Positions 2,556-55,926 of a stretch of DNA of 64,000 nt are shown here, piece after piece. The stretch comes from Methylomarinum sp. Ch1-1 (GTDB taxonomy: Bacteria; Pseudomonadota; Gammaproteobacteria; Methylococcales; Methylomonadaceae). A model generated the notes under the pieces. That model was not told the DNA's origin. It worked only from the letters and a program-made list of their open reading frames with translations, and did no database searches. The number at the start of each line of letters is the position of its first letter. Position 1 is the stretch's first letter. The DNA lies in assembly GCF_030717995.2 (NCBI RefSeq), contig NZ_CP157743.1:1922001-1986000 (forward strand). Reading direction: 5' to 3'. The position numbers and the translations under genes were made by a program.

Positions 2556-2603
2556 GTCGTTTCGTGATGAGTAAGGTTGTCGGTTCGGCGAATAGTTATT
2601 GAT

Positions 2604-3971: not shown

Positions 3972-4186
3972 CGGTGAACTCCTCCTTCCTTATCTATGTC
4001 GTCGGTTTGCTTATGTGAGCGTGTCGTCTTTATCGTTGCCGGGCGCTTTCAGGTTTGCCGTTATACGCAAATTTAAGACATCCCGCAATTTATATACAAC
4101 GATGGGGCTTAAGGGTACAAGATCTTCGATTAACGCGGTATTTTAACCCACTCCGGCTGAGACTGTGGAATTGTTCAAGGAACCTC

Positions 4187-4290
4187 AGCAATTCTCAATT
4201 TGGATAACAGATAGGGCCTGGGGTGTGTTTGGCGAGGATGTTGACGGCAGAGGGGGGACGTCAAGCCACCAACGGCGGGTTAGACGGCTC
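4187..4290. repeat. degenerate family R copy
   Basis: The segment begins with a CAGCAATTC-like end and keeps the GGGGTGTGTTTGGCGAGGAT block and a damaged hairpin, then breaks off shortly before the A element at 4307. Confidence 0.55.
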
Positions 4291-4306
4291 TAGCAATTGT
4301 TTCGGC

Positions 4307-4465
4307 GTAACTATTCAGGGTCTTGCAGTCTTTAGGGAGCAGGTCATTGATTTCTCGGGACGCGTGAATACATCCGTGTAAGCTCTGACTGCAACATCCT
4401 GTTGCAGACAGCCCGATAAATCAATAACCTACTCCCTCTGAAAAAAAACTATAATGAATAGTTAC
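4307..4465. mobile_element. family A MITE-like element, 159 bp
   Basis: Inverted ends GTAACTATTCAG (4307) and GAATAGTTAC (ending 4465) enclose the inner inverted pair GGAGCAGGTCATTGATTTCTCGGG and CCCGATAAATCAATAACCTACTCC. No protein is encoded. No clean target duplication is visible at this copy. Confidence 0.75.
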
Positions 4466-4832
4466 GTTTCTGCTTTTTCAGAAGCTCGCCGCATCGTACG
4501 CTGAAAATCTTGGAAACGGAGCGCCAGCGAAGTGAAGATTTTTAGTCCCCGATAGGCGTAGGGCCGATTGTTTTGTCGGAATCGAAGCGAGAGCGAAGGT
4601 GGAGACAAAATAAAAGGTCTCCCGAAACGCCGTCAAGTCATTTGTGGGAGTGCGACGGAGCCAGCATCGAGTTTACGATGATATGGCGAAGTGGCACGGA
4701 CGCAGGACGAATCGGGGCCGCCGGAGGCAATAATCGCCACGTAATTTCTGCCGCTTGCTTGGGCTGGGATGCCCAAAACAAGCTTTCGCAGAAATAGTGG
4801 CGCGCTAGACCCGCTTTGTGGTCGGCGCTTCG
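4466..4832. other. intergenic, no gene recognised
   Basis: This 367-base stretch upstream of nothing on the plus strand and downstream of cyanase on the minus strand has one short open frame (4573-4797) of no recognisable family. No terminator hairpin with a U-run is obvious. Confidence 0.4.
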
Positions 4833-5324
4833 TTACCAGGATTTGTAGGGAAGAAATTTACCGTTCATTTTGATCACGACACGGTCACCGGCTGGATTTT
4901 CTTCTTTGTCGACGTTCATGCTGAAGTCGATCGCGCTCATGATGCCGTCGCCGAATTTTTCGTGGACGATTTCTTTCAGCGTCTCGCCATAGACGCCGAC
5001 TATTTCGTAAAGCCGGTAGATCAATGGGTCCTGGGGGATATGAAAGGACCAGGTTTTGTTCGGGAACACTTCCAGCGCCGATTGCACCTCCGGCCCTAGT
5101 CCGAGCACGGCGCACAACTTGGCGGCCGGTTCCGTTTTCATGCTGTTCATGCCTAAACAGGCCGAGGCCAGCCAGACTTCATCGACGCCGAGTTGTTCGG
5201 CGATGGCTTGCCAGGTGAGTTGTTTTTTTACCTTGGCCGAAACTATCAGATCGGTCATTTGTTCTTTGCTCAGCACCGAATCGGCTTTGCTGAAGGATGG
5301 AGTTTGCGCGGGTTTTGTTTGCAT
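4833..5324 (-). CDS. cynS: cyanase (cyanate hydratase)
   Basis: Catalyses bicarbonate-dependent breakdown of cyanate to ammonia and carbon dioxide, giving a nitrogen source and detoxification in the cytoplasm. The 163-residue protein has the N-terminal helix-turn-helix-like domain (about 20-90) and the C-terminal catalytic domain. The catalytic triad known from E. coli (Arg96, Glu99, Ser122) aligns with Arg104, Glu107 and Ser130 in YRLYE and IMSAIDFS, with identical spacing. A GAGGA ribosome site sits eight bases before the ATG. The gene stands alone on the minus strand, directly downstream of the phosphatase-kinase gene; no carbonic anhydrase (cynT) is adjacent. Its location beside a formate/nitrite channel suggests a small nitrogen-acquisition neighbourhood. 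Confidence 0.95.
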   Translation of the reverse strand: MQTKPAQTPSFSKADSVLSKEQMTDLIVSAKVKKQLTWQAIAEQLGVDEVWLASACLGMNSMKTEPAAKLCAVLGLGPEVQSALEVFPNKTWSFHIPQDPLIYRLYEIVGVYGETLKEIVHEKFGDGIMSAIDFSMNVDKEENPAGDRVVIKMNGKFLPYKSW

Positions 5325-5382
5325 GTTGGTTTCCTCGTGGAATGTTAATCGATCGGGTTGTTTACTATGCTAAATCTTATCG

Positions 5383-15714: not shown

Positions 15715-15835
15715 CGCATGAGTTGTGTCTGTCGAGGAGCGCCGTTGGGGGCTTGACGTCGGCATCCTTGCTACCGACATTCTCGCCAGACACACCTCAC
15801 GCACTTTTAGATCTCTAAATTGGAAATTGCTATGC
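15715..15835. repeat. degenerate family R copy
   Basis: It keeps the GTGTCTGTCGAGGAGCGCCG block, the hairpin region and a GGAAATTGCT end, in altered form. The empty B site is present but modified (CGCCGTTGGGGGC). Confidence 0.6.
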
Positions 15836-15874
15836 TACAGTATTTGCTGCAATTGCATCAGTCGCGTTTGTTAG

Positions 15875-16112
15875 CAGCAATTCCCATCAGTTTGAGTATT
15901 TTTGCGGTGTTTAGGGCATGGGGTGTGTCTGTCGAGGAGCGCCGTTCACCCAGCACCTAAATTATGCTGGAATGTAAAATATAGTCCAGTAGCCATGGAA
16001 TTTAGGTGCTGGGTAAACCCATTCCTGGGGGCTTGACGGCAGCATCCTTGCTGCCGACATCCTCGCCAAACACACCCCATGCCCTTTTTGAACGCCAAAG
16101 TGGGAATTGCTG
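15875..16112. mobile_element. family R element with nested B, perfect 9-bp target duplication
   Basis: Ends CAGCAATTCCCA and TGGGAATTGCTG are flanked by GTTTGTTAG at 15866-15874 and again at 16113-16121. The element is 238 bp because a B palindrome occupies 15945-16017. The right target copy contains the stop codon of the CBS gene, so the element sits directly against that gene's 3' end without changing its product. Confidence 0.88.
15945..16017. mobile_element. family B palindrome nested in R, loop class 1
   Basis: Arms TTCACCCAGCACCTAAATTA and ATTTAGGTGCTGGG. It lies between CGCCG and TAAACCC of the R element; the uninterrupted join CGCCGTAAACCC is seen at 50026. Confidence 0.85.
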
Positions 16113-16117
16113 GTTTG

Positions 16118-16567
16118 TTAGGGATGCGCTTGCTTTTCGCTGTGTTGTTCTTTGCTGATCAGACCTGCTAAGTCTTTCAGTTGTTCGGCGAGCAGTTCCA
16201 GCAGGTCGTCCAGCGTGATCAGGCCGACTAATGCGCCTTGCTCGTCGACCACCGGCATGCGTCTGATGCCGTGATAACGCATTTGTTTAAGCGTATCGAT
16301 CACGTCGTCGTTTTCGCCGGCCAACTTCAGGTCGCCGCTGCTGACGTCTCCGACGGTCACGGCGGCGAGATCAACAGCCTTGGCGATCAGTTCAATGACG
16401 ATATCCCGATCCGTCAAGATGCCGATCGGAAAATTTCGTTCGCCTCGCTGTTCGGTGACGACCAGGCAGCCGACATGATATTGTCTCATCAAGGCGGCTG
16501 CTTCCTGAATCGAAGCCTTATTTTCGACGATGACGACTTCGCGGTTACAAATCTTAGCTAATGACAT
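16118..16567 (-). CDS. CBS-domain pair protein
   Basis: A 149-residue cytoplasmic protein made of two CBS domains (about 1-60 and 70-135), the common stand-alone Bateman module that binds adenosyl nucleotides and reports energy state. Typical motifs are IGILTDRDIVIELIA in the first domain and GIRRMPVVDEQGALVGLITLDDLLELLA at the end. No enzymatic domain is attached. It lies alone between an R element, which abuts its stop codon, and the diguanylate cyclase gene on the same strand. The target is not predictable. Confidence 0.88.
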   Translation of the reverse strand: MSLAKICNREVVIVENKASIQEAAALMRQYHVGCLVVTEQRGERNFPIGILTDRDIVIELIAKAVDLAAVTVGDVSSGDLKLAGENDDVIDTLKQMRYHGIRRMPVVDEQGALVGLITLDDLLELLAEQLKDLAGLISKEQHSEKQAHP

Positions 16568-16641
16568 GATGGCCCCTTTACACGATTAAACCCGACAGGG
16601 CTCATCTTGTTCATATCTGTCAGCGAGCTGTCAAGCTGTTT

Positions 16642-18378
16642 TTACAGAAAAGTATGCGTCGTCTTCCAGACCTGACAGTTGTTTCGTCCCACATTTTTCG
16701 CTCGGTATAGCGCCTGATCGGCTCTGATAATCAGCTCATCTAAGCTTTCGGCCGGCGTAGACAGCGAGCTGATGCCGAAACTCGCGGTGATGCGCTGATC
16801 GATCGCGGGAATTTGCAGCGCCGCGATAGTTTTGCGTAAGCGTTCGGCGAATTTCAAGGCGTTTTGCTCACTGGCTTCTTCGAGCAGGAGGGTGAATTCC
16901 TCACCGCCGAAACGGGCAGTGAAATCGGTTTCTCGACAAACTTTCCGGCAGCAAGCGGCGACCTGGACCAGCACCTCGTCGCCGACCGCATGGCCGTAAT
17001 TGTCGTTGAAGCGCTTGAAGTGATCGATGTCCAGAACGATAACCGCCAAATCTCGGTTATAGCGTTGGGCGCTGCGAAATATCGGTTCCGCTTTTTCGTG
17101 GAAGGCTCTTCGATTCAAGACGTCGGTCAGCGGGTCCTGGGATGCCAGGTATTCGAGTTCCCGGGTGCGTTCGGCGACGAGTTGTTCCAAGGTCGCATTG
17201 AGTTCTTTCAGCGCGTTTTGCGTGACTGTGAAATGGTGCAGAGAGATCGCGGTGATCGCCAGCAGGAAAGCCAGCAGTCCCCATGCCATCGGCACCCTGT
17301 GCCAAGGGAGATAACTGTGCGCGACGGCCATGTCAACCAGCAGGAAAAGACTGAATATGGCGTAGCTGACGATGATGGTTTTCTTCTCGGCGCCGACTTT
17401 CCTGAACAAGACGAATGCGACGCCGAACAAAATGACCAGGCTGATCGCGAACAAGCCGTCAAAGATGAAGTACATGTTGGAGATTTCGCCATGGCCGCTC
17501 ACGGATAGCGTAATGGCGCCCACTGCATAAGCGAGGTGAAATACCCCTACCGACTGGGTGAGGAGGATGAATTTTCCGGCGCACCATTCTCCGAATAAAA
17601 ACGCCATCGCAACCGGCAGCATGAAATAGCCGGCGGCGCCCAAGTGATCCCATAGCAACGGGGCGTTGAACAGCAATTGCTTGATTTGACTCTGGCCCAA
17701 CACGACGAATGCGGACGACAAGGCGAACAAGGCTAGATAAAAAAAGCTTTTCCGCTCGGATTGCAACAGCGCAAAAGCTATCGCCAGTATCGCGATCAGG
17801 AAAGAAAAGAAACTGACAATAATCTGTTCCACCGAGTGGTCGAAAATGTAGCGGATCAGATCCAGTCGCTCCATGATTTTGATTTCGCCCCATAGACCGA
17901 TATCGCTATAGTCGGAAAATATCCGAAAATAAATAGGCTTGCCGGCGAAATTTTCCGGCAAATCAATCATGTGCCATGGCCAACCTTCGAATCGACCTTG
18001 ACCCTGCGAGTCAAACGTTCCGTAATGATAGATCTGCTTGCCGTCCAAATACACCTGGACGATCAAGTCGACGCTATAAATGTAGATGATCGGGTCGCGC
18101 CAATTTCCTTCAGGTAAGGTGGTGCGGTACCAGACGTTGATGTTGCCGTTGCGAGCGGGCGGGTTGGAAGGGAAATCGATATCAGTCCAGTGTGCAGCTT
18201 CGTCCTCGGCTAGCGTCCATTCCGGAACTCCTTTGTCGTTGAAGGGCGAGTCACCCCAGCGGTATTGCCAGCCCGATTGCAACGATCGGGGTGCTTCGTC
18301 AGCCGCGACGGCCCCGGAGAAGCCATACAGAGCCCAGAGAAAAACCAGCATGAAGGCTGTCTTATTTAATTTTGCCAT
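16642..18378 (-). CDS. membrane diguanylate cyclase with 7TM/DISMED-type sensor
   Basis: Makes cyclic di-GMP from two GTP. I place the start at ATG 18378 (578 residues), not at the longer frame's start at 18507, because a signal peptide (MAKLNKTAFMLVFLWALYGF) and an AGAGGGA ribosome site begin there. An extracytoplasmic galactose-binding-like (7TMR-DISMED) domain covers about 25-170, a seven-helix membrane block about 190-400, a short coiled coil (LKELNATLEQLVAERTRELE) about 405-425, then the GGDEF domain with the intact active site GGEEF near 490. No RxxD inhibitory site was noticed just before it. The gene is monocistronic. A perfect palindrome overlies its ribosome site (separate entry). 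Confidence 0.88.
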   Translation of the reverse strand: MAKLNKTAFMLVFLWALYGFSGAVAADEAPRSLQSGWQYRWGDSPFNDKGVPEWTLAEDEAAHWTDIDFPSNPPARNGNINVWYRTTLPEGNWRDPIIYIYSVDLIVQVYLDGKQIYHYGTFDSQGQGRFEGWPWHMIDLPENFAGKPIYFRIFSDYSDIGLWGEIKIMERLDLIRYIFDHSVEQIIVSFFSFLIAILAIAFALLQSERKSFFYLALFALSSAFVVLGQSQIKQLLFNAPLLWDHLGAAGYFMLPVAMAFLFGEWCAGKFILLTQSVGVFHLAYAVGAITLSVSGHGEISNMYFIFDGLFAISLVILFGVAFVLFRKVGAEKKTIIVSYAIFSLFLLVDMAVAHSYLPWHRVPMAWGLLAFLLAITAISLHHFTVTQNALKELNATLEQLVAERTRELEYLASQDPLTDVLNRRAFHEKAEPIFRSAQRYNRDLAVIVLDIDHFKRFNDNYGHAVGDEVLVQVAACCRKVCRETDFTARFGGEEFTLLLEEASEQNALKFAERLRKTIAALQIPAIDQRITASFGISSLSTPAESLDELIIRADQALYRAKNVGRNNCQVWKTTHTFL

Positions 18379-18381
18379 CTT

Positions 18382-18399
18382 CCCTCTGTTAACAGAGGG
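18382..18399 (-). promoter_or_regulatory. 18-bp perfect palindrome overlapping the ribosome site
   Basis: CCCTCTGTTAACAGAGGG is a perfect dyad ending four bases before the ATG at 18378; its proximal arm is the AGAGGG ribosome site itself. In RNA it could hide the site; in DNA it could be a dimeric repressor operator. Confidence 0.5.
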
Positions 18400-18535
18400 G
18401 AGCATGAGGAGAACAGAGATCAAGTTAAAACCAATGAGTCGAATTAGCGTGTGTCCGGAAACTGGGAGAGGTTGTGTAAGGAATAGTTCGCGGTAGCCTG
18501 ATGCCATGATGTTATCGGCCAGTGTTAACGCAATT

Positions 18536-18619
18536 GTAATTATTCAGCGTAGTTTTATAAGAAGGAGTAGGTTATTGATTTATCGGGCTGTCTAAAACCC
18601 GAAAATTTTAAATAGTTAC
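18536..18619. mobile_element. family A element, internally deleted, with 8-bp target duplication
   Basis: Ends GTAATTATTCAG and AATAGTTAC flank only 84 bp. The perfect direct repeat ACGCAATT occurs at 18528-18535 and 18620-18627. The middle is missing compared with 4307-4465. Confidence 0.82.
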
Positions 18620-18761
18620 ACGCAATTTTACTCTGATTGATCGTTTAAATCGGATAAATATATCATCCGATATGATTTGTGATAGATTTGATTGCGGAGT
18701 GCGACAACGCTTTAATCATAAGTCGACTCTTTTTGTCAGTTAGACGGGCTGGAGGAAGAAA

Positions 18762-19355
18762 ATGTTAAAAATACAAGCATATAAGCCGGGTGGTAAAGCT
18801 GAATTCGGCGATGAGGATTTTTCGATATTCAACGAGGGCTTTGAAAACTTAATCAACAATCCCGACAGCAAGCTCGACAACAGAATCGCAGTCCGCATGT
18901 TTTTGGCTCTGAGGGGGATTAAAGGACAATTGTATCAGAACCTTGTTGAGCCTTACGATAATGGCTTTTATAAGAGGGCGGATGGTAAGTCTCATCCTGT
19001 TCCTTGGTTAAGAGTTCCGCGCTTTTTGAGGGTGCTGGGTTTTGACAAGGACATCGTCTCGATACGACATGACCTGGACTATTACCGGGGCCATGTCGGA
19101 GATGGACAGGCGATAGGCGGTAAAGCGCAGCGCAAAAAGGCCGATATCGCTTACCGAGAGTCACAAAATGCGGTCGGCGAGAGGAACTGGATCATCTATA
19201 CCGATTATTTGGGCTTGCGCCTGTTTGGCTGGTATTCATGGAAGAATCATCAATTTAAAAGACAAACGATAGATGGCTACGGTACAGATGACTATTTTAA
19301 GGATAAGGACGTCATACGGTCATTGGATAAAACCGATGTCGCCAAGCAGACTTAG
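18762..19355 (+). CDS. unassigned protein with phospholipase-A2-like HD motif
   Basis: A 197-residue soluble protein, no signal peptide. I do not recognise the family with certainty. The central segment IRHDLDYYRGHVGDG (about 105-119) followed by KADIAYRES (about 127-135) has the order His-Asp-x-x-Tyr ... Ala-Asp-x-x-(aromatic) seen in compact phospholipase A2 domains such as the parvovirus VP1 type. A candidate N-terminal calcium-binding glycine loop was not found. GGAGG precedes the ATG by six bases. Codon use is less GC-rich than in neighbouring metabolic genes, and the gene stands alone next to an A element, so horizontal acquisition is possible. Confidence 0.55.
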   Translation: MLKIQAYKPGGKAEFGDEDFSIFNEGFENLINNPDSKLDNRIAVRMFLALRGIKGQLYQNLVEPYDNGFYKRADGKSHPVPWLRVPRFLRVLGFDKDIVSIRHDLDYYRGHVGDGQAIGGKAQRKKADIAYRESQNAVGERNWIIYTDYLGLRLFGWYSWKNHQFKRQTIDGYGTDDYFKDKDVIRSLDKTDVAKQT

Positions 19356-19382
19356 AGACAATGACGATTAGATTATGTAAGC

Positions 19383-19973
19383 TTATTTTTCCGTGGGGTT
19401 TTCTTCATGCTGCTGCGTGAGTATCCTACGAGCCTGGTTAAAATTCAAGCCGCTGATGCCGCCTTTTTGCATCGATTGTTTCAATGAGTGCGCCAGCGCC
19501 GAAGCCAGCGCGCGGGAGTAGAAGGGCAGTGTTTCGATATAAACCGGCAGCAGGTCGTCTATCCGTTCGGCCCGTTGCATGCTGTTTTCGAAACGTTCGC
19601 GCCGACGCTTGATTTCGTCGATTAGGGCAGGGTCGTTCAGGCATTGCCCCGACAGCCGCAGCGTCCAGGTCAGATCGGCCTGTAGTTCGCAGCGACCGAT
19701 ATAACGACCGTATTGATGAGTAGACCATTGTTCGGGCGCTATTAATGATAGATTGTAGCGGCCGTTTTTCCGGTAAAGCCAATAACCTTGTCCGGAGACC
19801 GGCTTGAATCTGATTTGGCTGTTCAGGATAAAAAGGGACGTGAAGAGTTCGTTACTTATCCGGTCGATGTTCTTCGCCGGCACTGACAGCTGTGTTTTGG
19901 CCTGCCGTAAACTCTCCAGCACAGGAGACAGGCCTTTGCCTTGAGGATTAGGGAATTTCGGGCTGGAATCCAT
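19383..19973 (-). CDS. DUF2452 family protein
   Basis: A 196-residue cytoplasmic protein. The N-terminal NPQGKGLSPVLESL motif (about 8-21) and the RYNLSLIAPEQW segment are the family hallmarks. It appears to be largely alpha-helical in its second half. No function is established for this family to my knowledge. It is transcribed convergently with the upstream unassigned gene, with only 27 bases between the stops. Confidence 0.75.
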   Translation of the reverse strand: MDSSPKFPNPQGKGLSPVLESLRQAKTQLSVPAKNIDRISNELFTSLFILNSQIRFKPVSGQGYWLYRKNGRYNLSLIAPEQWSTHQYGRYIGRCELQADLTWTLRLSGQCLNDPALIDEIKRRRERFENSMQRAERIDDLLPVYIETLPFYSRALASALAHSLKQSMQKGGISGLNFNQARRILTQQHEENPTEK

Positions 19974-41715: not shown

Positions 41716-43818
41716 CTAAATGGTTTCGATCAGAAAGTTTTCAAACACGACAACAGAGTGAGCGTTGATTTGATATTGTCGTTGCGCAAGGGATCTTTGT
41801 TCCGCTCTCGGGACGATGTCCTGCGGCGATGGACGTGAAGTGTCCACCGACAGAGACCATTGCCGTCCATCGATGACAGGCAAGGTAGCGTCGTGTTGTT
41901 GATCCGACATGTTCATGACGATATGCAGGTCGGGCTCTTTAGGGTCTAGCGCGCCAACGGTAAAGGCCAGAATCTGTGATTCATGATCATGCCAATCCGG
42001 TGTCTTGTCGGCGTTTAATCCGCTCCAGCTGATGTCGGCTATCTCACGATTTTTGAGTTTTTGGCCGGTGAAAAAGTGACGTCGCATCAGCGCCGGATGT
42101 CTTTTTCTCAGCTTGATCATCAATTGCACGAAACGCACCATATTGGCATTTTTTTCCGCCATGCTCCAATCCAGCCATGCCAGCTCATTATCCTGACAAT
42201 AACCATTATTGTTGCCCTGTTGGCTATGCAGAAATTCATCGCCGGCCAGCAGCATCGGCACGCCCTGGCTCAACAACAAGATCGCGAACACATTTTTTGC
42301 TTGTTGTTTACGTAACGCCAGAACTTTCGGATCATCGGTTTCCCCTTCGATGCCGCAATTCGAGCTCAGGTTGTGGTTGCAGCCGTCACGATTATGCTCG
42401 CCGTTGGCTAAATTGTGTTTTTCCTGATAGCTGAATAAGTCGTTCAGGGTAAAGCCGTCATGACAGGTGACAAAATTAATACTGCTGATGGGCAGGCGTT
42501 CCTGGCTTTGGTAAAGATCGCTGCTGCCGCATACCCGGGTGGCGACTTCTCTGATCAGTCCTTTATCGCCGCGGACAAACTGGCGGATGATATCGCGGTA
42601 GATGCCATTCCATTCGGCCCAGCGATATCCGGGGAAACAGCCGACTTGATACAGTCCGGTTGCATCCCAGGCTTCGGCGATCAATTTGGTTTTAGCCAGC
42701 TGTTCCGATAATTCGATGCCCCAGACGATCGGCGGATCCTGTAATACCGAGCCGTCTTCGCCGCGCGACAGGGCGCTGGCCAAATCGAAGCGGAAGCCGT
42801 CGACATGCATGTCTCTGACCCAGTACTCCAAGCAACTGATGATGAAGCGGGAGACCAAGGGATGATTGGCGTTGACGGTATTGCCGCATCCGGTATAGTC
42901 GTGGAAGATGCTTTTGTCGACTTTGTCGATCAGATAAAAGCTGTTGCCGGCAATGCCTTTGAAATTGATCATCGGTCCGTTGGCGCCGCCTTCCGAGGTA
43001 TGGTTGAACACCACATCCATGATCACGCCGATGCCCGCCTTATGCAATGCCTTGATCAGGTCGCGGAATTCCCGTTGATGGGTGCCTTGTCCGGGCGTCG
43101 AGCAATAGCCCGGATGGGGACTGAAAAAACTATGGGTGCTGTAGCCCCAATAGTTTTTCAGGCCGAGTTCGGCGGTGTGCTCGGGGACATCCTGTTCGTC
43201 AAAGGCCATCACCGGCAATAGTTCGACATGGGTGATGCCTAACTCTTTCAAATAAGGGATTTTCTCGATCAGTCCGGCAAAAGTGCCGGGGTTTTTGACG
43301 TTGGCCGAGGGGTGGCGGGTAAAGCCGCCGACATGCAATTCGTAAATAATGGCTTTTTCGCTGCGTATGGCCAAGGGTTTATCGCCTTCCCAATCATAGG
43401 CTTCATTCACCACGACGTTGCGCATCGAGCAATGGCCATTATCGCCGGGCAGGCAGGCTGCCGTGCGGTCCCAGTGTTTATCGCTGACGGCCCGCGCCCA
43501 AGGGTCGAGCAAGTGCTTTTCCTTGTCAAAAACCAGGCCAGTATGCTTGGTGTCGGTAGGCCCGTTGATCCGCCAGGTATACCAAGTGCCAGCAGGCAGG
43601 TGTTTAACAAAAACATGCCAGGAAAAGAAGGTGCGGTTTTTATCCTTTTTGAGCTCGATAGTCTGAAAAGGCTTATTGCAGTCTTCGGTCCGAAATAGTA
43701 ATAATTCCACTTCCTCGGCATGACGGCTGAAAATAGAGAAATTCACTCCGCCATCATGCAGTTTGGCGCCATGTGGATAGGGGCTGCCGGGCTTAATTTT
43801 AAATTCGATATCTTGCAT
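41716..43818 (-). CDS. glgX: glycogen debranching enzyme (isoamylase type)
   Basis: Hydrolyses alpha-1,6 branches of glycogen. The 700-residue protein has an N-terminal CBM48 domain (about 10-120), a GH13 barrel with DGFRFDLAS (nucleophile Asp, about 331), KLIAEAWDA (acid/base Glu, about 368) and TCHDGFTLNDL (transition-state Asp, about 446), and a C-terminal beta-domain. The length and the insert QSQERLP fit GlgX/TreX. It is divergent from the DUF4912-GH57 group across a 500-base gap, so the two sets may share control. Confidence 0.94.
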   Translation of the reverse strand: MQDIEFKIKPGSPYPHGAKLHDGGVNFSIFSRHAEEVELLLFRTEDCNKPFQTIELKKDKNRTFFSWHVFVKHLPAGTWYTWRINGPTDTKHTGLVFDKEKHLLDPWARAVSDKHWDRTAACLPGDNGHCSMRNVVVNEAYDWEGDKPLAIRSEKAIIYELHVGGFTRHPSANVKNPGTFAGLIEKIPYLKELGITHVELLPVMAFDEQDVPEHTAELGLKNYWGYSTHSFFSPHPGYCSTPGQGTHQREFRDLIKALHKAGIGVIMDVVFNHTSEGGANGPMINFKGIAGNSFYLIDKVDKSIFHDYTGCGNTVNANHPLVSRFIISCLEYWVRDMHVDGFRFDLASALSRGEDGSVLQDPPIVWGIELSEQLAKTKLIAEAWDATGLYQVGCFPGYRWAEWNGIYRDIIRQFVRGDKGLIREVATRVCGSSDLYQSQERLPISSINFVTCHDGFTLNDLFSYQEKHNLANGEHNRDGCNHNLSSNCGIEGETDDPKVLALRKQQAKNVFAILLLSQGVPMLLAGDEFLHSQQGNNNGYCQDNELAWLDWSMAEKNANMVRFVQLMIKLRKRHPALMRRHFFTGQKLKNREIADISWSGLNADKTPDWHDHESQILAFTVGALDPKEPDLHIVMNMSDQQHDATLPVIDGRQWSLSVDTSRPSPQDIVPRAEQRSLAQRQYQINAHSVVVFENFLIETI

Positions 43819-44314: not shown

Positions 44315-45079
44315 TTGTCATATAAGCGATTGAAAGAGGCATCAAAAGCCTTATCTGTTCCGGAAATATGGTATGAAGGCAAGTTCCCGGATGGAAACAC
44401 GAGAGCCCGGCAAGGTCGCGCGGGGGTATGGAAAACTCTAAACAGATTATCAAAGCTGGTGATAGTATCTTATCAGTCAAGACATAGTTCCCGAATCAAG
44501 CTGTCACCCGAGGAAATGTTAGCAATTAGTGAACAGCTTAGCCGAGAATATACGCCGGGTTTTTCCAGCCGAGCGTCGGCAAGCAACTCTCATATCAGAC
44601 TTTCAGCCCAGGAAATGTTGACGATCAGCGAAGAAATCAGCCGTCAACATCCGCTGCGCCTGTCATTACCATCGCCTCGTTCTAAAATCGTGTTGTTGGC
44701 GGTCGATCCTAACCATCTCCATGCCTATTGGCATATCGACGAAAAACAAATGACTCAAGACTCGGCTCAGCCTCTGACTCTGCGGATTTATGCGGTGGCC
44801 GATAACCTTGCTGACGGCGCCGATCAGCCGGAGTGGTTCGATATGACATTGGCGCCGAGCCAGACTCAGCAACGGGTGGCGATACCGGAACAGATGACCG
44901 CGAATTATTATGGCGCATCGATCGGAAAATCACAGGGAAAAGACGGCTTTGCCGCTTTGGCGAGTTCCGATACCGCTTATGTGCCAAGAGCTCATGGCGC
45001 CGATCAATATGACGCGCCTGCGCTTGCCGGCGTCTTGTTATCCGAGCATGCTTCCGGACGGGGAAAAGAAATCCGATGA
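44315..45079 (+). CDS. DUF4912 domain protein
   Basis: A 254-residue protein. The DUF4912 core is SKIVLLAVDPNHLHAYWHIDE (first part, about 128-148), followed by LTLRIYAVAD and a PEQMTANYYGASIG segment. Two shorter repeats of the form (I/L)S(P/A)(E/Q)EML(A/T)IS(E)(Q/E) occur at about 64-76 and 93-105. The domain is a beta-sandwich of the kind found beside carbohydrate enzymes. No ATG is available at the N-terminus: a stop is at 44309 and the first start codon is TTG 44315; an ATG at 44308 is out of frame. So the true start is uncertain. The stop overlaps the GH57 start (ATGA). Confidence 0.8.
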   Translation: MSYKRLKEASKALSVPEIWYEGKFPDGNTRARQGRAGVWKTLNRLSKLVIVSYQSRHSSRIKLSPEEMLAISEQLSREYTPGFSSRASASNSHIRLSAQEMLTISEEISRQHPLRLSLPSPRSKIVLLAVDPNHLHAYWHIDEKQMTQDSAQPLTLRIYAVADNLADGADQPEWFDMTLAPSQTQQRVAIPEQMTANYYGASIGKSQGKDGFAALASSDTAYVPRAHGADQYDAPALAGVLLSEHASGRGKEIR

Positions 45080-46677
45080 ACAAGGGGTTTCTGTCGATTG
45101 TCTTGCATGCCCATCTTCCCTATGTCAGACATCCTGAGTATGACGGTTTTTTCGAGGAAAACTGGCTGTTCGAGGCGATCACCGAGTGCTACGTGCCATT
45201 GCTGGCGATGCTGGATCGCCTGCAGGCCGATGATATCGAATATCGACTGACTTTGTCGCTATCGCCGACGTTGATCACGCTGTTGGGGGACGAGCTATTA
45301 CAGAGGCGCTATCTGAAGCACCTGCATCGCTTGCTGGAACTGGCCGACAAGGAAATCGAGCGCACCCGGGAACAGCCTGAATTCCATCGCTTGGCGCTTT
45401 TTTATCGGCGTTTGTTCGGCGACACCCAGAGGATTTACCAAGAGCAATACCATGGCGACTTGTTGGCGGCGTTTAAAAAGCATCGTGATGCCGGCAACTT
45501 GGAATTGATCACGACAGCGGCGACCCATGGTTTTTTGCCGTTGCTGAACAACAGCGAAACGGCCGTTCGTTGCCAGATCGATACCGGTATCGATACTTTC
45601 GAGGAGGCTTTCGCGATTAAGCCGGACGGTTTCTGGTTGCCTGAATGCGGTTATTATCCGGGCCTGGAAGAGTCCCTGAAAGAGGCGGGCGTCGATTACT
45701 TCTTCGTCGATAGCCATGGCTTGAACGATGCCAGCGAGACGCCTAGGCGTGGTGTTTATGCGCCGCTGGATTGCGGCAACGGAGTCTGCGCCTTTGCCCG
45801 AGACCCGCAATCCTCCAGCCAGGTCTGGAGCGCCGAACAAGGATATCCAGGCGATGCCGTTTACCGGGAATATTATCGCGATATCGGCTTCGATTTGGCG
45901 CTAGATTACATTTCCCCCTATATTCTCGATGGCAAAACCCGGATCAACACCGGGATCAAATATCATCGGGTGACCGGGGCAGGCGCCGATAAACGGATCT
46001 ATCAGAGCGACGTGGCGGCGGCCAAGGCAAAGGAGCATGCGGCCGATTTTATCAGCCAACGCCTGCGTCAAGTCGATCGACTAAACGAGGAGATGGACAG
46101 GCCGCCGCTGATTGTCGCACCTTATGATGCCGAGTTATTCGGTCATTGGTGGTTCGAAGGCCCGCAGTGGCTGGAACAGGTGCTCAGGCTTGCGGCCGAG
46201 GAAGAAAACGGTATTCAGTTGCAAACTTGCAGGGACTATCTTTCCCGTTATCCCGAGCAACAGCAGGCGACGCCGTCGGCGTCGAGCTGGGGCGAGCAGG
46301 GTTATTCGTCATATTGGCTCAATGATCACAACGATTGGATTTATCCGTTGATCCATAGGGCCGCCGCCGACATGGAAAAATTGGCCGACGATCTGCAGGG
46401 TCTGGCGGTGACCGATTTACAGCGTCGAGCCCTGAATCAGGCTTTGCGGTCGGTGCTGTTGGCTCAAGCCTCCGACTGGCCTTTCATCATGAAATCCGGC
46501 ACCGACGTGGAATATGCCTGCAAGCGCATTACCGATCACTTGGCCCGATTCAATTATCTGCGCGATTGTATTCGCAAAAACCGTATCGATGAGCGTTATT
46601 TGACGGCGTTGGAAATCATGGATGATATTTTTCCGTTCATCGATTATCGTTCCTATCAACCCGCGGCCGGATTCTGA
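45076..46677 (+). CDS. GH57 glycosidase, probable glycogen branching enzyme type
   Basis: A 533-residue GH57 protein. The N-terminal VLHAHLPYVRHPEYDG (about 9-24) is the GH57 branching-enzyme motif, the nucleophile glutamate is in GFWLPECGYYPG (about 190-201), and the acid/base aspartate in APYDAELFGHWWFEG (about 351-365), with a DUF1957 helical C-terminal domain from about 430. It would form alpha-1,6 branches in glycogen. Coupling to the DUF4912 gene (4-base overlap) and the divergent debranching gene glgX support a role in glycogen structure. alpha-Amylase activity cannot be excluded. Confidence 0.88.
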   Translation: MNKGFLSIVLHAHLPYVRHPEYDGFFEENWLFEAITECYVPLLAMLDRLQADDIEYRLTLSLSPTLITLLGDELLQRRYLKHLHRLLELADKEIERTREQPEFHRLALFYRRLFGDTQRIYQEQYHGDLLAAFKKHRDAGNLELITTAATHGFLPLLNNSETAVRCQIDTGIDTFEEAFAIKPDGFWLPECGYYPGLEESLKEAGVDYFFVDSHGLNDASETPRRGVYAPLDCGNGVCAFARDPQSSSQVWSAEQGYPGDAVYREYYRDIGFDLALDYISPYILDGKTRINTGIKYHRVTGAGADKRIYQSDVAAAKAKEHAADFISQRLRQVDRLNEEMDRPPLIVAPYDAELFGHWWFEGPQWLEQVLRLAAEEENGIQLQTCRDYLSRYPEQQQATPSASSWGEQGYSSYWLNDHNDWIYPLIHRAAADMEKLADDLQGLAVTDLQRRALNQALRSVLLAQASDWPFIMKSGTDVEYACKRITDHLARFNYLRDCIRKNRIDERYLTALEIMDDIFPFIDYRSYQPAAGF

Positions 46678-46728
46678 TCCTCCAACAGGCGGAAAGGTTT
46701 TCGACTCACTAGGCAACGGAGAAAGACG

Positions 46729-48234
46729 ATGAGTCATATTCAGCTGTTATATGTTGAAAATGTCATCAACAGAAAAAAAAGAGTGCCTCGGCAGGAGCTG
46801 GCTTTTTTTATGCGGGTCAAGGATGTCTCATACGACAAGCAGGTCGATGTGGTCTGGTCCGGAGAAGATGGCGCGTGGCATAGCTTGCCGGTGCATTTTC
46901 ATCATGGTCTGCATGATGATATCGAATGTTGGCAAGCGCGGGCGACCTTTCCGCTCACCGCTCATCAGGCCTTGCCCGGTAATATTCGCTTCAGCCTGCG
47001 TTATCGGGTTCATGGCGACGAATTCTGGGACAACAACCATGGCCGTAATTACGAGAGTCAGGCCGATTCCGGGATACAATTAGGCCCCAATATTCTGATT
47101 CAGAATATCGACCCCCAACGTCATCTGCAGGAAGGTCAGAAAAGCCTGCCGGTGACGGTCGTACTGGATAAGTCGCTTCATGCCGAAAAAGTCACGATTC
47201 ATTGGACCGTCGATAATTGGCAGCATACCTTCAAGACAGCTTGTCACTGCAAGATCAATTATTGGGACAGTAAAGCTAAGAGCAACGCCCGGAATCCCAA
47301 TCAATACGCCAATCAGCTTTGGAGCGGACGGCTCAGAATCGGCGCCGGCTTCCGTTTGCAGTACAGCATCTGCTGTGAAGGCCGCGGGCAGGTGTTATGG
47401 GATAATAACGAGGGCAGAAATTACGTCGCCAGCCACAAGCCGCTGACCGTGATGATTTTGAATCTGCATTGTTATCAAGAAAGCAACCAAGATCATAAAT
47501 TCTGGCAGATCGCCAAGGCCATTGATGAACAGGAGGTCGATATCGCTTGCTTTCAAGAGGTTGCGGAAAACTGGAACGACGGCCAGGGCGACTGGCACTC
47601 AAATTCGGCCAACATCATCAATCAACGCTTGCGCACGCCCTATCATCTCTACAGCGATTGGTCGCACCTGGGATTTGACAAATACCGGGAGGGGGTGGCG
47701 ATTCTCAGTCGTTTTCCGTTGCTGAACCAGGAAGGCCGATATGTGTCGGACAGCGACGAGATATACAGCATTCATTCGCGCAAGGTGGTGATGGCCCAGG
47801 TGAAGGTGCCCTATATGGGTTGGGTCAATGTCTTTTCGGCCCATCTGAGCTGGTGGGAGGACGGTTTTCGCCAGCAGTTCCAGCGTTTGTGCGATTGGGC
47901 CAACAGTAAAGCCGGAAAACGAATCAAAAGCACGCTGCTGTGCGGCGATTTCAATATTGCCGCCGGTTCGGAAGGCTATCAATTAGTCGTCAAGGGCCAT
48001 CAATACGAAGACCAATATCTGCAAGCGAATCAACGGGGCTTGTTTGAAAAAATTTTTCGGGTCGATGATGCTCATTGGGGAGATTATCTGGCTGACGATT
48101 ATCGCATCGACTATATTTTTTTGAATCGTGACAGTCACTTACAGGTGACATCGGCCAAAGTGTTGTTTACCGAACAGGACTACGGTCCGGTATCCGATCA
48201 CTGTGGTTATGTGATGACGTTTGAGCCGAAGTAA
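46729..48234 (+). CDS. double CBM21 - endonuclease/exonuclease/phosphatase fusion
   Basis: A 501-residue protein without signal peptide. Two modules resembling CBM21 starch/glycogen-binding domains each end in the family motif: WDNNHGRNY (100-108) and WDNNEGRNY (224-232). From about 240 an EEP (DNase I-like) domain follows with all catalytic blocks: LNLHCYQ (N245), CFQEVAEN (E277), FSAHLSWW, CGDFNIAAG, RIDYIFL and SDHCGY. The EEP fold hydrolyses phosphodiesters or phosphomonoesters of nucleic acids, inositol phosphates or sphingolipids. The combination targets a phosphodiesterase to glycogen. GGAG lies eight bases before the ATG; the gene follows GH57 after 51 bases. Confidence 0.85.
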   Translation: MSHIQLLYVENVINRKKRVPRQELAFFMRVKDVSYDKQVDVVWSGEDGAWHSLPVHFHHGLHDDIECWQARATFPLTAHQALPGNIRFSLRYRVHGDEFWDNNHGRNYESQADSGIQLGPNILIQNIDPQRHLQEGQKSLPVTVVLDKSLHAEKVTIHWTVDNWQHTFKTACHCKINYWDSKAKSNARNPNQYANQLWSGRLRIGAGFRLQYSICCEGRGQVLWDNNEGRNYVASHKPLTVMILNLHCYQESNQDHKFWQIAKAIDEQEVDIACFQEVAENWNDGQGDWHSNSANIINQRLRTPYHLYSDWSHLGFDKYREGVAILSRFPLLNQEGRYVSDSDEIYSIHSRKVVMAQVKVPYMGWVNVFSAHLSWWEDGFRQQFQRLCDWANSKAGKRIKSTLLCGDFNIAAGSEGYQLVVKGHQYEDQYLQANQRGLFEKIFRVDDAHWGDYLADDYRIDYIFLNRDSHLQVTSAKVLFTEQDYGPVSDHCGYVMTFEPK

Positions 48235-48296
48235 TGGCATTGTCTTTGCTTTACTAAGGCAGGCAACGTGCCGAGGAAACGAAAATCGAGGTGAAA

Positions 48297-49892
48297 ATGC
48301 AGTTCGCAGAACAATATGCCAAGCCTTTTTTTGGACAACTAGGTGGTTTTTTTCAAAGAATCAATGATTTTAAGGATACCTTCGATATACGCTGGGGGAA
48401 GATTGAATTCGAGATGTTCCATGGTGTTGCCGCCAATCTGAAGGTGATATTGAAGGTTTATCGGGATAACCAAATCTGCGAAACCTACATAGTCGATACT
48501 GATGCCTATGATATCCATTGGGACCGACATAAACGCAACACACGGGATTTTTATGTCTATCCGTTTTCCAACCATTTGGGCAAGATCAACTGCATCAAGA
48601 TCGCTTATATTGTGCATTTACATGAGCAATCGATAGCTTCGGAAAAAGAATACATCTTCATGGATTGGCATCAGTTGCAGGACGGTTATCCGCAACAACG
48701 TCATATCAATGATCAGTGGACCACGCCGAACCATTATCGCAGCTATGAATTGAATGCGGCGGAGCTACAGAGCGATGTCGATTGGTATAACCACCATTTC
48801 GACGCCTTGAATCTGACGCCCAAGTTTACCAAGGGGCAACAACATCATCCTTATCATCCCAAGCGTTTCATTCATGATCATATCGACAAGGTCATCCACT
48901 ATAAGCGGGAAGACCCGCAACGTTTCTGTACGATCAAGGTCAGTGTCGACTGCATCGATGACAACGACTTCATCAATCATCTGATTCACGCCAGCGAGCA
49001 AGGCGTTTGGGTGCAGTGCATCGTCGACTGGCGTAAGATGACGATGACCAACAGTCACACCTATGCGCGTTTGAAACAATCCAGGGTCGAGTTGCTGGGC
49101 GTGTTTTGCACCCCCAAACATCATCTGATCGAAGTCGAACCGGATATGCACACTAAATTCATCATTTTCAATGACGAAGATTGCATCCTAGGCTCGTTCA
49201 ATATCACTTTCGATCGCTGGTGGGCGAATTGGGAATCGGGCATGACCTTTCATTCCAAAGGCGTCTGCCGACTGCTCGACAATATTTTTCAGAGTCAGCG
49301 TGGCGGCGTCATTCAGAAATACGGCATCGATCCGCTCAGTCATTTCAATCTGTTGTATACCTTCGGTAGACACAGCATGCAAAATGGCAAAACCTATTTG
49401 CCGCATCATGCCATCTTGGCCGAGATTCATCGCGCCCGCCATTCCATCAGGGCCTGTCTGTTTCTGATCGGCGACTTATTGGGCGATCATCATGACAGCG
49501 TTGTAAACGCCTTGATCCTGGCTAAGCATCGCGGCGTCGACGTGCATATCCTGTTTAACGGTCATCTGGCTCGGCAAGGGCGCATCGGCGTCGAACGCAG
49601 CATGGACGAAGAACTGAATCGGCCGTTGTTGCCGGCGATTCAGCGTTTGAAGGAGGCCGGCATTCCGGTGGGCCTGGTCTATGGTCAGGATGATCACCCT
49701 GTGCCTTATTCGCCGATACATTCCAAGTATTGTGTGATTGACGAATACATCGTCATCGAAGGCAGCTTCAATTGGTATAACACCTCGGTTTTTTCCCATG
49801 ATCTGCTGGTCGTGGCGGCCAATCATCGGGTGGCACAGCCGTATTTGTATGAGTTTGATGAAATAAGGCGCTGTTTCAGGGTGTTTTATTGA
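48297..49892 (+). CDS. phospholipase D-like (double HKD) protein with novel N-terminal domain
   Basis: A 531-residue protein (ATG 48297, GAGGTG just upstream; GTG 48291 is possible). An N-terminal domain of about 130 residues, beta-rich and not recognised, precedes two PLD repeats. Motif 1 is HTKFIIFN at about 285, where the usual Asp is Asn followed by Asp; motif 2 is the intact HSKYCVID at about 475. Both are followed by GSFN, as in active PLD enzymes. The superfamily includes phospholipases, cardiolipin synthases and nucleases. It comes 62 bases after the CBM21-EEP gene, and its N-terminal domain may be a third carbohydrate-binding type. No membrane helix is evident. Confidence 0.85.
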   Translation: MQFAEQYAKPFFGQLGGFFQRINDFKDTFDIRWGKIEFEMFHGVAANLKVILKVYRDNQICETYIVDTDAYDIHWDRHKRNTRDFYVYPFSNHLGKINCIKIAYIVHLHEQSIASEKEYIFMDWHQLQDGYPQQRHINDQWTTPNHYRSYELNAAELQSDVDWYNHHFDALNLTPKFTKGQQHHPYHPKRFIHDHIDKVIHYKREDPQRFCTIKVSVDCIDDNDFINHLIHASEQGVWVQCIVDWRKMTMTNSHTYARLKQSRVELLGVFCTPKHHLIEVEPDMHTKFIIFNDEDCILGSFNITFDRWWANWESGMTFHSKGVCRLLDNIFQSQRGGVIQKYGIDPLSHFNLLYTFGRHSMQNGKTYLPHHAILAEIHRARHSIRACLFLIGDLLGDHHDSVVNALILAKHRGVDVHILFNGHLARQGRIGVERSMDEELNRPLLPAIQRLKEAGIPVGLVYGQDDHPVPYSPIHSKYCVIDEYIVIEGSFNWYNTSVFSHDLLVVAANHRVAQPYLYEFDEIRRCFRVFY

Positions 49893-49960: not shown

Positions 49961-50128
49961 CAACAATTCTCATCAGTTTGAGCATTTTGCTGTGGTTAGG
50001 GCATGGGGTATGTCTGTCGAGGAGCGCCGTAAACCCATCCCTGGGGGCTTGACGGCAGCATCCTTGCTGCCGACATCCTCGCCAAACACACCCCATGCCC
50101 TTTTTGAACGCCTAACTGGGAATTGCTG
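49961..50128. mobile_element. family R element, empty form, perfect 9-bp target duplication
   Basis: Ends CAACAATTCTCA and TGGGAATTGCTG are flanked by AGAATAGAA at 49952-49960 and 50129-50137. The uninterrupted join CGCCGTAAACCC shows the B site without B. Confidence 0.88.
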
Positions 50129-53900: not shown

Positions 53901-54725
53901 ATGAATAGTTACTTGATTTTCACCGACCTGGACGGCACCTTGCTGGATCATCAGGATTATCGTTTTACCGAGGCGCTGGCGGCATTGGAAAAAATCAGAC
54001 AAGCGCGGATACCTCTGATCATCAATTCGAGTAAGACACGGGCGGAAATCGCCGACATTAGAAAACAATTGCACAATAATGGTGCATTTGTAGTCGAAAA
54101 TGGTGCGGCGGTATGTGTCCCTGCCGGGCTATTCCCTGGTTACGACCAGACTGTTAATCAGGTGATTTTGGGCCGGGCGTTGACCGAGATCTTGCCGATC
54201 ATTCGGCGGCTGCGTGAAACGCATGGTTTTTCTTTCCAAGGCTTTAACGATTTCAGCGTCGCCGATGTGATGAGGGAAACCGGCCTGAATGAAATTCAGG
54301 CCGAACAGGCGAAACAGCGCTTGGCTTCGGAGCCGCTGAAGTGGCGAGACAGTCAGGAAAGGCTGGGGCAATTCCAAAGCTTGCTACGCCAGCAGGGACT
54401 GCAATTGATCAAAGGTGGGCGTTTCTGGCATGTCATGGGGGGGAATGACAAATCCCGAGCGATGGCATGGCTGTTGAATAAGTATCAGCAACAACAGCAG
54501 CGGAAGAAACTATTGACCATCGCCCTGGGCGATAGTCAAAACGACCTAAGAATGCTGGAGCAGGCTGATTATGCCGGCGTCATCCGTAAACCAGATGGCG
54601 GTCATCTGTCTATCAACAAGGCGCCGGATCGAGTGATATATTCACAGCATCGAGCGCCATTGGGTTGGCGGGAAGTGATCGATCAGCTGTTTAGTCAACT
54701 GAATATAGGAGAGGGTAATGAGTGA
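53901..54725 (+). CDS. mannosyl/glucosyl-3-phosphoglycerate phosphatase (HAD-IIB)
   Basis: A 274-residue HAD-IIB phosphatase of the mannosyl-3-phosphoglycerate phosphatase (YedP) family. Motif I FTDLDGTLLD (about 7-16), motif II NSSKT (about 37), cap domain with VVENGA and the K-G-G-R-F-W-H segment, and motif IV ALGDSQNDLRML (about 209-220) are intact. It should dephosphorylate glucosyl-3-phosphoglycerate to glucosylglycerate. Its 3' end overlaps the synthase gene by eight bases, as expected for consecutive steps. Confidence 0.88.
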   Translation: MNSYLIFTDLDGTLLDHQDYRFTEALAALEKIRQARIPLIINSSKTRAEIADIRKQLHNNGAFVVENGAAVCVPAGLFPGYDQTVNQVILGRALTEILPIIRRLRETHGFSFQGFNDFSVADVMRETGLNEIQAEQAKQRLASEPLKWRDSQERLGQFQSLLRQQGLQLIKGGRFWHVMGGNDKSRAMAWLLNKYQQQQQRKKLLTIALGDSQNDLRMLEQADYAGVIRKPDGGHLSINKAPDRVIYSQHRAPLGWREVIDQLFSQLNIGEGNE

Positions 54726-55926
54726 TTTTTTTCAAAACGGGTCGATTACGACGCTGCACCGACTGAACAAGGATCGTGTCACTGAGATGGAAAAGGAATT
54801 GTTGGGATTTTCCGCTGACAGACCGATGGGCTTGGTGCTGCCATCGTTATATTCCGAGCTGAAAGGGCCGGCGTTGGAAGGAATCATCCGAGAAATCAGT
54901 CAGGTGTCGTATCTGAGCGAGATCATCATCGGACTTGATAATGCCGATGCCGACGAATTCGCTCATGCCCGGGAGTTTTTCAGCGCGCTGCCTCAACACT
55001 ACAGAATCCTGTGGAATGATGGGCCGAGACTGCGAAAATTGAATGTACAGTTGATTGAAAAAGGGATCGCGCCTAAGGAATTGGGGAAAGGCCGCAACGT
55101 CTGGTATTGCTATGGTTACGCGATCGCTTCGGGACGTTCCGAAGCGATCGCCTTGCATGACTGCGACATACTGACCTATAACCGGGAGTTGTTGGCGCGG
55201 CTGTTTTATCCGGTCGCCAATCCGGCTTTTCATTATGAATTCTGCAAGGGCTATTATTACCGCGTTGCCGACCAGAAAATCAACGGACGGGTATGCAGGC
55301 TATTGGTCACACCGTTGCTCAGGGCGTTGAAGAAGGTCATCGGTCCGACGGATTATCTCGATTATCTGGACAGCTTCCGCTATTCCTTGTCCGGTGAGTT
55401 TGCGATTCGCATGGATACGATCAAGGAGATCCGCATTCCCAGCGATTGGGGCTTGGAAATCGGCGTGCTGTCCGAGATGTATCGTAATCAGTCGCGCAAG
55501 CATATCTGCCAGGTCGAAATTGCCGATGACTATGATCATAAACATCAAGTTCTATCCAGCGATGTCGACGTCGGTTTGTCGAAGATGAGCATCGATATCG
55601 CCAAAGCTATATTCCGTAAACTCGCGACCGAAGGCGTGGTGTTGAGCAAGGAGGTTTTCAGGACCTTGAAAGCCACCTATTATCGAGAGGCGCTGGATGC
55701 GGTCGAGGCTTACTATAGCGATGCCTGCATCAACGGTCTGAAGCTGGATAGACACCTTGAAGAACAGACCGTCGAGTTATTCGCCCAGCATATCATTCGG
55801 GCCGGCGATGGCTTTTTGGACCGGCCCAGTGAAACGCCGTTTATTCCCAGCTGGAATCGGGTGGTCAGCGCCATCCCCGATGTGCTGGAGCGATTGCGCG
55901 ATGCGGTCGAAGAGGACAATGCTTGA
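54718..55926 (+). CDS. gpgS: glucosyl-3-phosphoglycerate synthase
   Basis: A 402-residue GT-A glycosyltransferase (GT81 type) that joins nucleotide-activated glucose and 3-phosphoglycerate. The metal-binding motif lies in ALHDCDILTYN (about 141-151), preceded by GKGRNVWYCYGYA, and the acceptor region includes SGEFAIRMD and SDWGLEIGVL (about 216-246), all characteristic of the family. It follows the phosphatase gene with an eight-base overlap. The product is the precursor of glucosylglycerate, a compatible solute often made under salt or nitrogen stress. Confidence 0.9.
   Translation: MSDFFQNGSITTLHRLNKDRVTEMEKELLGFSADRPMGLVLPSLYSELKGPALEGIIREISQVSYLSEIIIGLDNADADEFAHAREFFSALPQHYRILWNDGPRLRKLNVQLIEKGIAPKELGKGRNVWYCYGYAIASGRSEAIALHDCDILTYNRELLARLFYPVANPAFHYEFCKGYYYRVADQKINGRVCRLLVTPLLRALKKVIGPTDYLDYLDSFRYSLSGEFAIRMDTIKEIRIPSDWGLEIGVLSEMYRNQSRKHICQVEIADDYDHKHQVLSSDVDVGLSKMSIDIAKAIFRKLATEGVVLSKEVFRTLKATYYREALDAVEAYYSDACINGLKLDRHLEEQTVELFAQHIIRAGDGFLDRPSETPFIPSWNRVVSAIPDVLERLRDAVEEDNA

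Follow-up and report, generated by a model that had tools for sequence, protein, structure and literature searches.

Laforin and the plant enzyme SEX4 share a plan in which a glucan-binding module (CBM20 in laforin, CBM48 in SEX4) is joined to a phosphatase of the dual-specificity (Cys-x5-Arg) fold, and the CBM21 proteins protein phosphatase 1 (PP1) regulatory subunits 3A–3C and glucoamylase A are eukaryotic. Among described systems the closest to the protein considered here is MapP of Enterococcus faecalis, a stand-alone enzyme of the endonuclease/exonuclease/phosphatase (EEP) family that is encoded behind a maltose phosphotransferase system (PTS) gene and serves sugar uptake by removing the PTS-added phosphate of maltose phosphate; a published passage on it places mapP downstream of malT, gives the substrate as a disaccharide phosphate, maltose 6′-phosphate, and records that the protein had been assigned to the EEP family before its function was known (PMC3737437). 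The accessible part of a 2025 account of glycogen phosphate (PMC13011383) lists bacteria among the organisms without laforin, links glycogen phosphate to Lafora disease, and gives the mechanism by which glycogen is phosphorylated as unknown. Here we analyze a gene of Methylomarinum sp. Ch1-1 (Methylococcales, Methylomonadaceae; taken to be a type I methanotroph; genome size 4.77 Mb) that encodes two CBM21 modules fused to an EEP catalytic domain, together with a phospholipase D (PLD)-superfamily gene that follows it, in a window of 64,000 nucleotides (contig NZ_CP157743.1, positions 1,922,001 to 1,986,000; coordinates below are those of the window unless another locus is named). Coordinates and profile matches bear out what an earlier note on this window had reported, that DUF4912, GH57, fusion and PLD genes are consecutive on the + strand (44315–49892) with glgX on the opposite strand. 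The intergenic gaps are −4, 51 and then 62 bases if the PLD gene starts at the ATG at 48297, the start used by most aligned relatives, or 56 bases if it starts at the upstream GTG; the gaps given in the note, −4, 51 and 62, are correct.

The 501-amino-acid fusion protein (46729–48234, + strand) matches PF03370 (CBM_21) in two stretches, with 75.9 bits for the whole protein (cut-off 28.9), and PF03372 (Exo_endo_phos) with 61.8 bits (cut-off 24.5). Both copies of the WDNNxGRNY motif from which tandem CBM21 modules had been proposed are present: the first module spans approximately residues 4–112 (46738–47064) and carries WDNNHGRNY at residues 100–108, and the second spans approximately residues 125–234 (47101–47430) and carries WDNNEGRNY at residues 224–232. 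We take W-D-N-N-x-G-x-N-Y to be the CBM21 glycogen-binding motif. Among 49 aligned fusions, its Trp is kept in 47 in either module, its Tyr in 45 (first) and 47 (second), and its Asn in 47 (N102) and 48 (N226); the second Asn of the first motif is kept in just 35. With profiles built from the 49 fusions, the solved chains matched by the first module were the glucoamylase CBM21 2djm (2.6e-6) and PPP1R3A 2m83 (8.6e-5), and those matched by the second were PPP1R3B 2eef (4.1e-7) and PPP1R3C 7qf7 (5.5e-7). A comparison with hhalign shows that one module is a homologue of the other (95.5%). The CBM21 modules have mean identities to the window protein of 53.5% and 49%, compared with 70% for the EEP domain. 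In 299 genomes sampled across the phylum CBM21 was found in the present genome alone, and it was found in none of 14 control genomes. The tandem CBM21 arrangement is thus real at the level of sequence, and a CBM21 fold and glucan binding are predicted for it.

The EEP domain occupies residues 238–501 (47440–48231) and is intact, as had been claimed, in that its catalytic residues N245, E277, H372, D407, N409, D461, S489, D490 and H491 are invariant in 49/49 aligned fusions. It is 28.8% identical to E. faecalis MapP (locus L180, 7001–7825) over 98% of its length (tblastn, E = 2e-14), and a tblastn search of plasmids with this domain returned 61 records outside the methanotrophs, the best 60 of the 61 being 28–31% identical over 97–99%. 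One of these, from E. faecalis, is annotated as maltose 6′-phosphate phosphatase and has GH65, pgmB and PTS IIBC genes upstream. Seven gene contexts were inspected, of which six are annotated (Lactococcus, E. faecium, E. faecalis, Cetobacterium, Priestia and Leclercia) and the seventh, from Niallia, carries no annotation. In 6/6 annotated contexts the MapP-type gene lies directly 3′ of a PTS IIBC gene, accompanied by GH65 and pgmB in three, by an alpha-glucosidase in two and by pgmB alone in one, so that alpha-glucan or alpha-glucoside genes lie near both MapP-type and fusion genes. The best solved relative is the same for the fusion (9.7e-31) and for MapP (7.7e-30), namely 3teb, an EEP protein of 266 amino acids that is named by superfamily only and aligns to the EEP part of the fusion only. 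The EEP chains that come next with the fusion profile, a bacterial sphingomyelinase-type haemolysin, Angel2, 3g6s, PDE12, SMPD2 and nocturnin, score 0.037 or worse.

The same kinship is seen at individual positions. Nineteen residues (N245, H247, E251, K257, E277, N292, H313, E321, R351, H372, W375, F380, D407, N409, R459, D461, S489, D490 and H491) are identical in 10/10 fusions and 7/7 MapP types. E. coli YbhP differs from both at E251, K257, N292, H313, E321, W375 and F380, while stand-alone paralogues of the methanotrophs keep N292, H313, E321, W375 and F380 and have Gln at E251 (8/9) and Glu at K257 (9/9); E251 and K257 are thus the two positions at which fusions and MapP types agree with each other and differ from the paralogues. 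A tree of 25 EEP rows separates fusions (support 100/99), MapP types (98/99) and the stand-alone paralogues (100/99) into three groups, places the EEP protein of G450 among the MapP types and puts YbhP far off on a very long branch; this tree left out three EEP proteins of the present genome, ExoIII, L003 and four of the nine paralogues. An earlier tree of 34 rows, poorly extracted ones included, had weak support (94/93 for the fusions and 43/100 for the MapP types) and a bootstrap that had not settled. On these alignments the EEP domain of the fusion is kin to the sugar phosphatase MapP, a relationship that narrows the list of guesses for this protein to one testable function.

The stand-alone paralogues are a second EEP protein of the same family in methanotrophs, 279–292 amino acids long and 33–37% identical to the fusion (L065 8208–10556; L066–L073), and in genome G197 such a gene adjoins the fusion gene. 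A further EEP relative (38%) in a genome of the class sample, G366 (L076 1411–2397), has what appears by eye to be a lipoprotein-like signal at its start, which suggests that the EEP family also includes exported members.

How closely are the fusion, the PLD gene and glycogen metabolism linked? In the order sample of 201 genomes, the two genes occur together in 93, while two genomes have the PLD gene alone (G098, where it is truncated by the contig start, and G190) and none has the fusion alone. The fusion search (E 1e-10) and the PLD search (E 1e-60) each gave 95 of the 201 genomes; the count of 93 for the fusion omits G173 and G190 (36%, EEP-only paralogue) and includes some partial genes at contig ends. 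In a class-level sample (321 genomes, E 1e-25) the PLD gene was found in the present genome alone, and the fusion profile also gave EEP-only matches in G366 and G450. We then considered 80 named PLD loci from methanotroph, Methylococcaceae/Methylococcales or proteobacterial records; Methylomonas sp. LW13 (L093), a laboratory strain, is among the carriers of both genes. The fusion gene is directly upstream of the PLD gene in 75 of the 80, or in 74 of the 77 that have at least 1.7 kb of upstream DNA (three were excluded as shorter). The three misses are L082, L086 and L151; the last of these does have a fusion gene, which ends about 3.2 kb upstream, past the 2.5 kb limit set for the count; in L051 the fusion gene is present, overlapped by a long open reading frame (ORF). 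Where the upstream DNA reaches 6 kb or more (59 loci; 21/80 were shorter), 54 loci contain one or more glycogen genes (DUF4912, GH57, glgX, glgA, glgB, glgC, malQ or a second GH57). The glgX, GH57, DUF4912 and glgA labels are profile matches; the glgB, glgC and malQ labels were assigned by reading the sequence and are presumptive. These counts across loci and genomes make the pair more than a chance association, and the link to glycogen genes drawn in the earlier note is borne out as conserved.

Two arrangements recur, one in which the pair lies 3′ of DUF4912-GH57 (often with glgX opposite) and one in which it lies 3′ of glgB-glgA in the main glycogen cluster, and glgX- and malQ-type genes are near it in many loci. 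In L045 (G132), a glgC-glgB-glgA stretch flanks DUF4912-GH57-fusion-PLD on both sides (2254–6044 and 15772–19553), which is either a duplication or an assembly repeat. The pair is parted in eight genomes (G063, G078, G116, G123, G142, G168, G182 and G197). The fusion remains with DUF4912-GH57 in seven of them, the exception being G197, whose contig ends 1 kb upstream and where no glycogen gene lies in the stretch read; the stretches around the parted PLD genes contain a glycogen reference gene in 0/8 cases. The PLD genes of G142 and G182 have one downstream gene in common and so possibly reflect a single move. Because parted fusions stay with DUF4912-GH57 and parted PLD genes do not, the tie to glycogen genes belongs to the fusion, which the PLD gene accompanies through co-inheritance and not through place.

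The PLD protein (48291–49892, + strand; 533 amino acids from the GTG, 531 from the ATG) matches PF13091 in two stretches (122.2 bits), in agreement with its earlier assignment to the PLD superfamily. Its first half (48813–49340) carries H287-x-K289-x4-N294 and its second half (49353–49889) H477-x-K479-x4-D484. The HxKx4N and HxKx4D forms are found in 46/46 aligned rows, so the first motif departs from the textbook in having Asn for Asp, and the halves are related to each other (hhalign, 89.8%). The protein is 70–90% identical to 20 relatives. Mean identities of its halves (87% and 82%) exceed that of the EEP domain (70%), and that of its N-terminal region is 67%. This region (residues 1–160, 48291–48770) has no Pfam match and no hhalign match to either CBM21, and by the same searches the PLD protein as a whole has no recognizable carbohydrate-binding domain. 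Its best solved relatives are weak ones, mitochondrial cardiolipin hydrolase (2.1e-4) and the endonuclease 1byr (0.008), and it also weakly matches the NucT model. A place in anti-phage defence as DISARM DrmC was considered and dropped, since the match (37.4 bits) is far below the NCBIfam cut-off of 133 and the neighbours are glycogen genes; the PADLOC DrmC model, for which no cut-off is given, matches at 6e-11 over part of the PLD protein. Among viral contigs 23 pattern matches included 0 true relatives of the PLD protein, and the search of plasmids gave no match to it.

We propose, with confidence that stands about midway, that the fusion is a glycogen-anchored alpha-glucan phosphatase and that its PLD partner acts before it. 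In this proposal the two CBM21 modules would anchor the fusion on the glycogen particle, and the metal-dependent EEP domain would dephosphorylate glucosyl units, either in glycogen itself or in maltodextrins released from it, by hydrolysing monoesters that most likely sit on the 6-hydroxyl. This would restore the chains for branching by the GH57 enzyme, for synthesis, and for debranching by GlgX. We infer glycogen binding, phosphatase activity and the 6-position from the combination of a MapP-type domain, two CBM21 modules, a branching-enzyme neighbour and the lack of any PTS EIIC in the present genome. The last of these matters because, with no PTS EIIC, a phospho-alpha-glucan would have to be formed by the cell itself, for which glycogen is the obvious candidate. 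In the accessible part of a published comparison, type I methanotrophs likewise have no PTS for glucose and all have glycogen synthase (PMC8062543). Glucan phosphate reduces the affinity of branching enzymes, one bacterial enzyme included, according to the accessible part of PMC13011383, in which GH57 is not mentioned. The earlier note had suggested that two phosphoesterases are brought to glycogen, perhaps for removal of covalent phosphate. That guess at phosphate removal gains specific support from the kinship of the EEP domain to a sugar phosphatase, whereas the placing of the PLD protein at glycogen stays a conjecture, given its lack of a recognizable carbohydrate-binding module and the 0/8 parted loci.

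A step of the PLD protein ahead of the phosphatase is more speculative. PLD enzymes convert diesters to monoesters, so a diesterase upstream of a phosphatase is a natural guess; the partner might open a glucan phosphodiester first and leave a monoester for the EEP domain. A phosphodiester of glucose-1-phosphate linked to the 6-hydroxyl was once proposed for muscle glycogen. Together the two proteins could then be a bacterial system that erases glycogen phosphate in two steps: first the PLD protein would cut the glucan phosphodiester, and then the CBM21-CBM21-EEP fusion would take off the monoester left behind. Two enzymes of one pathway would fit the co-inheritance seen in the order (93 both, 2 PLD alone, 0 fusion alone), but we consider this fuller scheme rather unlikely.

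Several observations weigh against the proposed function. Although glgA (TIGR02095) is present in 92 of the 93 genomes with the pair (Fisher p 1.8e-7, kinship not accounted for), 81 of 173 glgA genomes are without the pair; it is thus dispensable for making glycogen, and is a glycogen accessory and not part of basic synthesis. Five of the 59 long loci (L086, L109, L125, L126 and L136) have no glycogen gene, and the PLD protein has no link to glucan other than its fusion partner. The genome showed no glucan dikinase: PPDK_N is confined to ORFs of 812 and 915 amino acids, presumably the sizes of phosphoenolpyruvate synthase and pyruvate phosphate dikinase. Identity to MapP is just 29%, a distance at which EEP specificity can shift, and in the tree the fusions form a clade of their own beside the MapP types and not within them, the order among the three groups being unresolved. 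The catalytic residues are superfamily-wide (YbhP has them too), and most of the pocket residues are also found in the stand-alone paralogues. BLAST puts the MapP types (28–31%) farther from the fusion than either these paralogues (33–37%) or the G366 protein (38%), and none of eight loci centred on a stand-alone paralogue contains glycogen genes. Finally, phosphorylation of bacterial glycogen is itself called a matter of speculation in the accessible part of PMC13011383.

Could the fusion act instead on small molecules? As an enzyme of cytosolic metabolite repair it would dephosphorylate small phospho-alpha-glucosides, such as maltose or maltodextrin 6-phosphate formed as side products, with the CBM21 modules keeping it close to the enzymes that release them. 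That MapP acts on a disaccharide phosphate (PMC3737437, accessible part) and that glgX- and malQ-type genes lie nearby in many loci agree with such a role, but two conserved CBM21 modules suggest a polymer and not a small sugar as the site of action, and we think the role improbable, if one to keep in mind. Somewhat less probable again is a role as a phosphodiesterase or nuclease tethered to glycogen, in which the fusion together with the PLD protein would degrade nucleic acid or nucleotide held by the particle. Both folds include nucleases, and there are weak matches of the EEP domain to the exonuclease III model TIGR00633 (21.8 bits, cut-off 99.05) and of the PLD protein to the NucT, endonuclease and MitoPLD entries mentioned above; the EEP domain is nevertheless much nearer to MapP and 3teb than to solved EEP chains of known activity, W375 and H313 are among the residues it shares with MapP types, and we can name no reason why glycogen should carry nucleic acid.

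The adjacent E. coli genes ybhP (EEP) and clsB (PLD) raise the question of whether the fusion and its partner are relatives of that pair that act on membrane phospholipid beside glycogen. The likeness goes little further than gene order: the fusion is 26% identical to YbhP over 179 residues, compared with 29% over the whole domain for MapP, YbhP is distant in the tree, and the PLD protein barely resembles ClsB (E 0.083 in a single comparison), so that kinship with ybhP-clsB was dropped and the phospholipid role appears very unlikely. Least credible, and to be given hardly any weight, is a targeting or regulatory protein in the manner of the CBM21 subunits of PP1 that would dephosphorylate glycogen enzymes and not glucan, for even though the solved chains nearest to the second CBM21 are PP1 glycogen-targeting subunits, the kinship to MapP indicates a sugar phosphate, and to our knowledge no EEP enzyme is a protein phosphatase.

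If the fusion is a glycogen-anchored alpha-glucan phosphatase, how does it relate to the described systems? It resembles MapP in its EEP family, in identity over the whole domain, and in catalytic and pocket residues, and differs from it in having two CBM21 modules, in its glycogen gene neighbours, in a host genome lacking PTS EIIC and in falling into a separate clade. Like laforin and SEX4 it would couple a glucan-binding module to a phosphatase domain and, as proposed, remove monoesters from glycogen or starch; it differs from both in its EEP fold, which is not that of a Cys phosphatase, and in belonging to another CBM family, and no Pfam match to a dual-specificity phosphatase domain was found in it up to E 1. 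The PP1 subunits 3A–3C and glucoamylase A have the CBM21 module in common with it by profile match, but the matched chains contain no EEP fusion. Because one defining feature each of the MapP and laforin families was looked for and found lacking, we set the fusion outside both, and regard it as having the predicted plan of a bacterial glucan phosphatase with a new catalytic fold. Our literature search, to which most subscription papers were out of reach, agrees with the statement in the earlier note that no bacterial system with such a gene set has been described.

The divergent neighbour glgX (41716–43818, − strand) encodes a glycogen debranching enzyme (TIGR02100, 685.1 bits, cut-off 640.9). 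The GH57 gene (45076–46677, + strand) encodes a 1,4-alpha-glucan branching enzyme with a BE_C domain (PF03065, 138.7 bits; PF09210, 114.4 bits), its top NCBIfam models being 1,4-alpha-glucan branching proteins (~1e-100, under their strict cut-offs). The first gene (44315–45079, + strand) encodes, from a TTG, a protein of 254 amino acids with a DUF4912 domain at residues 123–233 (PF16258, 49.4 bits, cut-off 29.4). It is the least conserved member of the operon (46% identity in L036, the nearest relative with the operon), and two similar stretches, IKLSPEEMLAISEQLSRE and IRLSAQEMLTISEEISRQ, precede its domain (44315–44680). Directly 3′ of the PLD gene lies a 131-base intergenic element (49995–50125) with inverted repeats at bases ~2–27 and 82–107; it has at least 40 near full-length copies (95–100% identity), all on contig C2 among the matches listed, with 40 of 281 candidates scored, and the element looks like a member of a REP- or MITE-type family. 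Farther downstream (53901–55926), a gene of the mannosyl-3-phosphoglycerate phosphatase family (above cut-off) adjoins a match to a glucosyl-3-phosphoglycerate synthase model (under cut-off), and this gene pair near the glycogen genes is likely a glucosylglycerate pathway.

A sugar phosphatase on glycogen, encoded beside a branching-enzyme gene, would make bacterial glycogen phosphorylation testable in a genetically simple cell. If the proposed function is correct, the fusion would be a glucan phosphatase with a new fold, and the substrate of the PLD partner may show what chemical form the modification takes. Should the two proteins even act in succession as an eraser, bacterial glycogen would be both phosphorylated and policed, by a catalytic fold unlike those of laforin and SEX4. 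If bacterial glycogen does carry phosphate, the fusion could be a bacterial analogue of laforin, the phosphatase of Lafora disease in humans.

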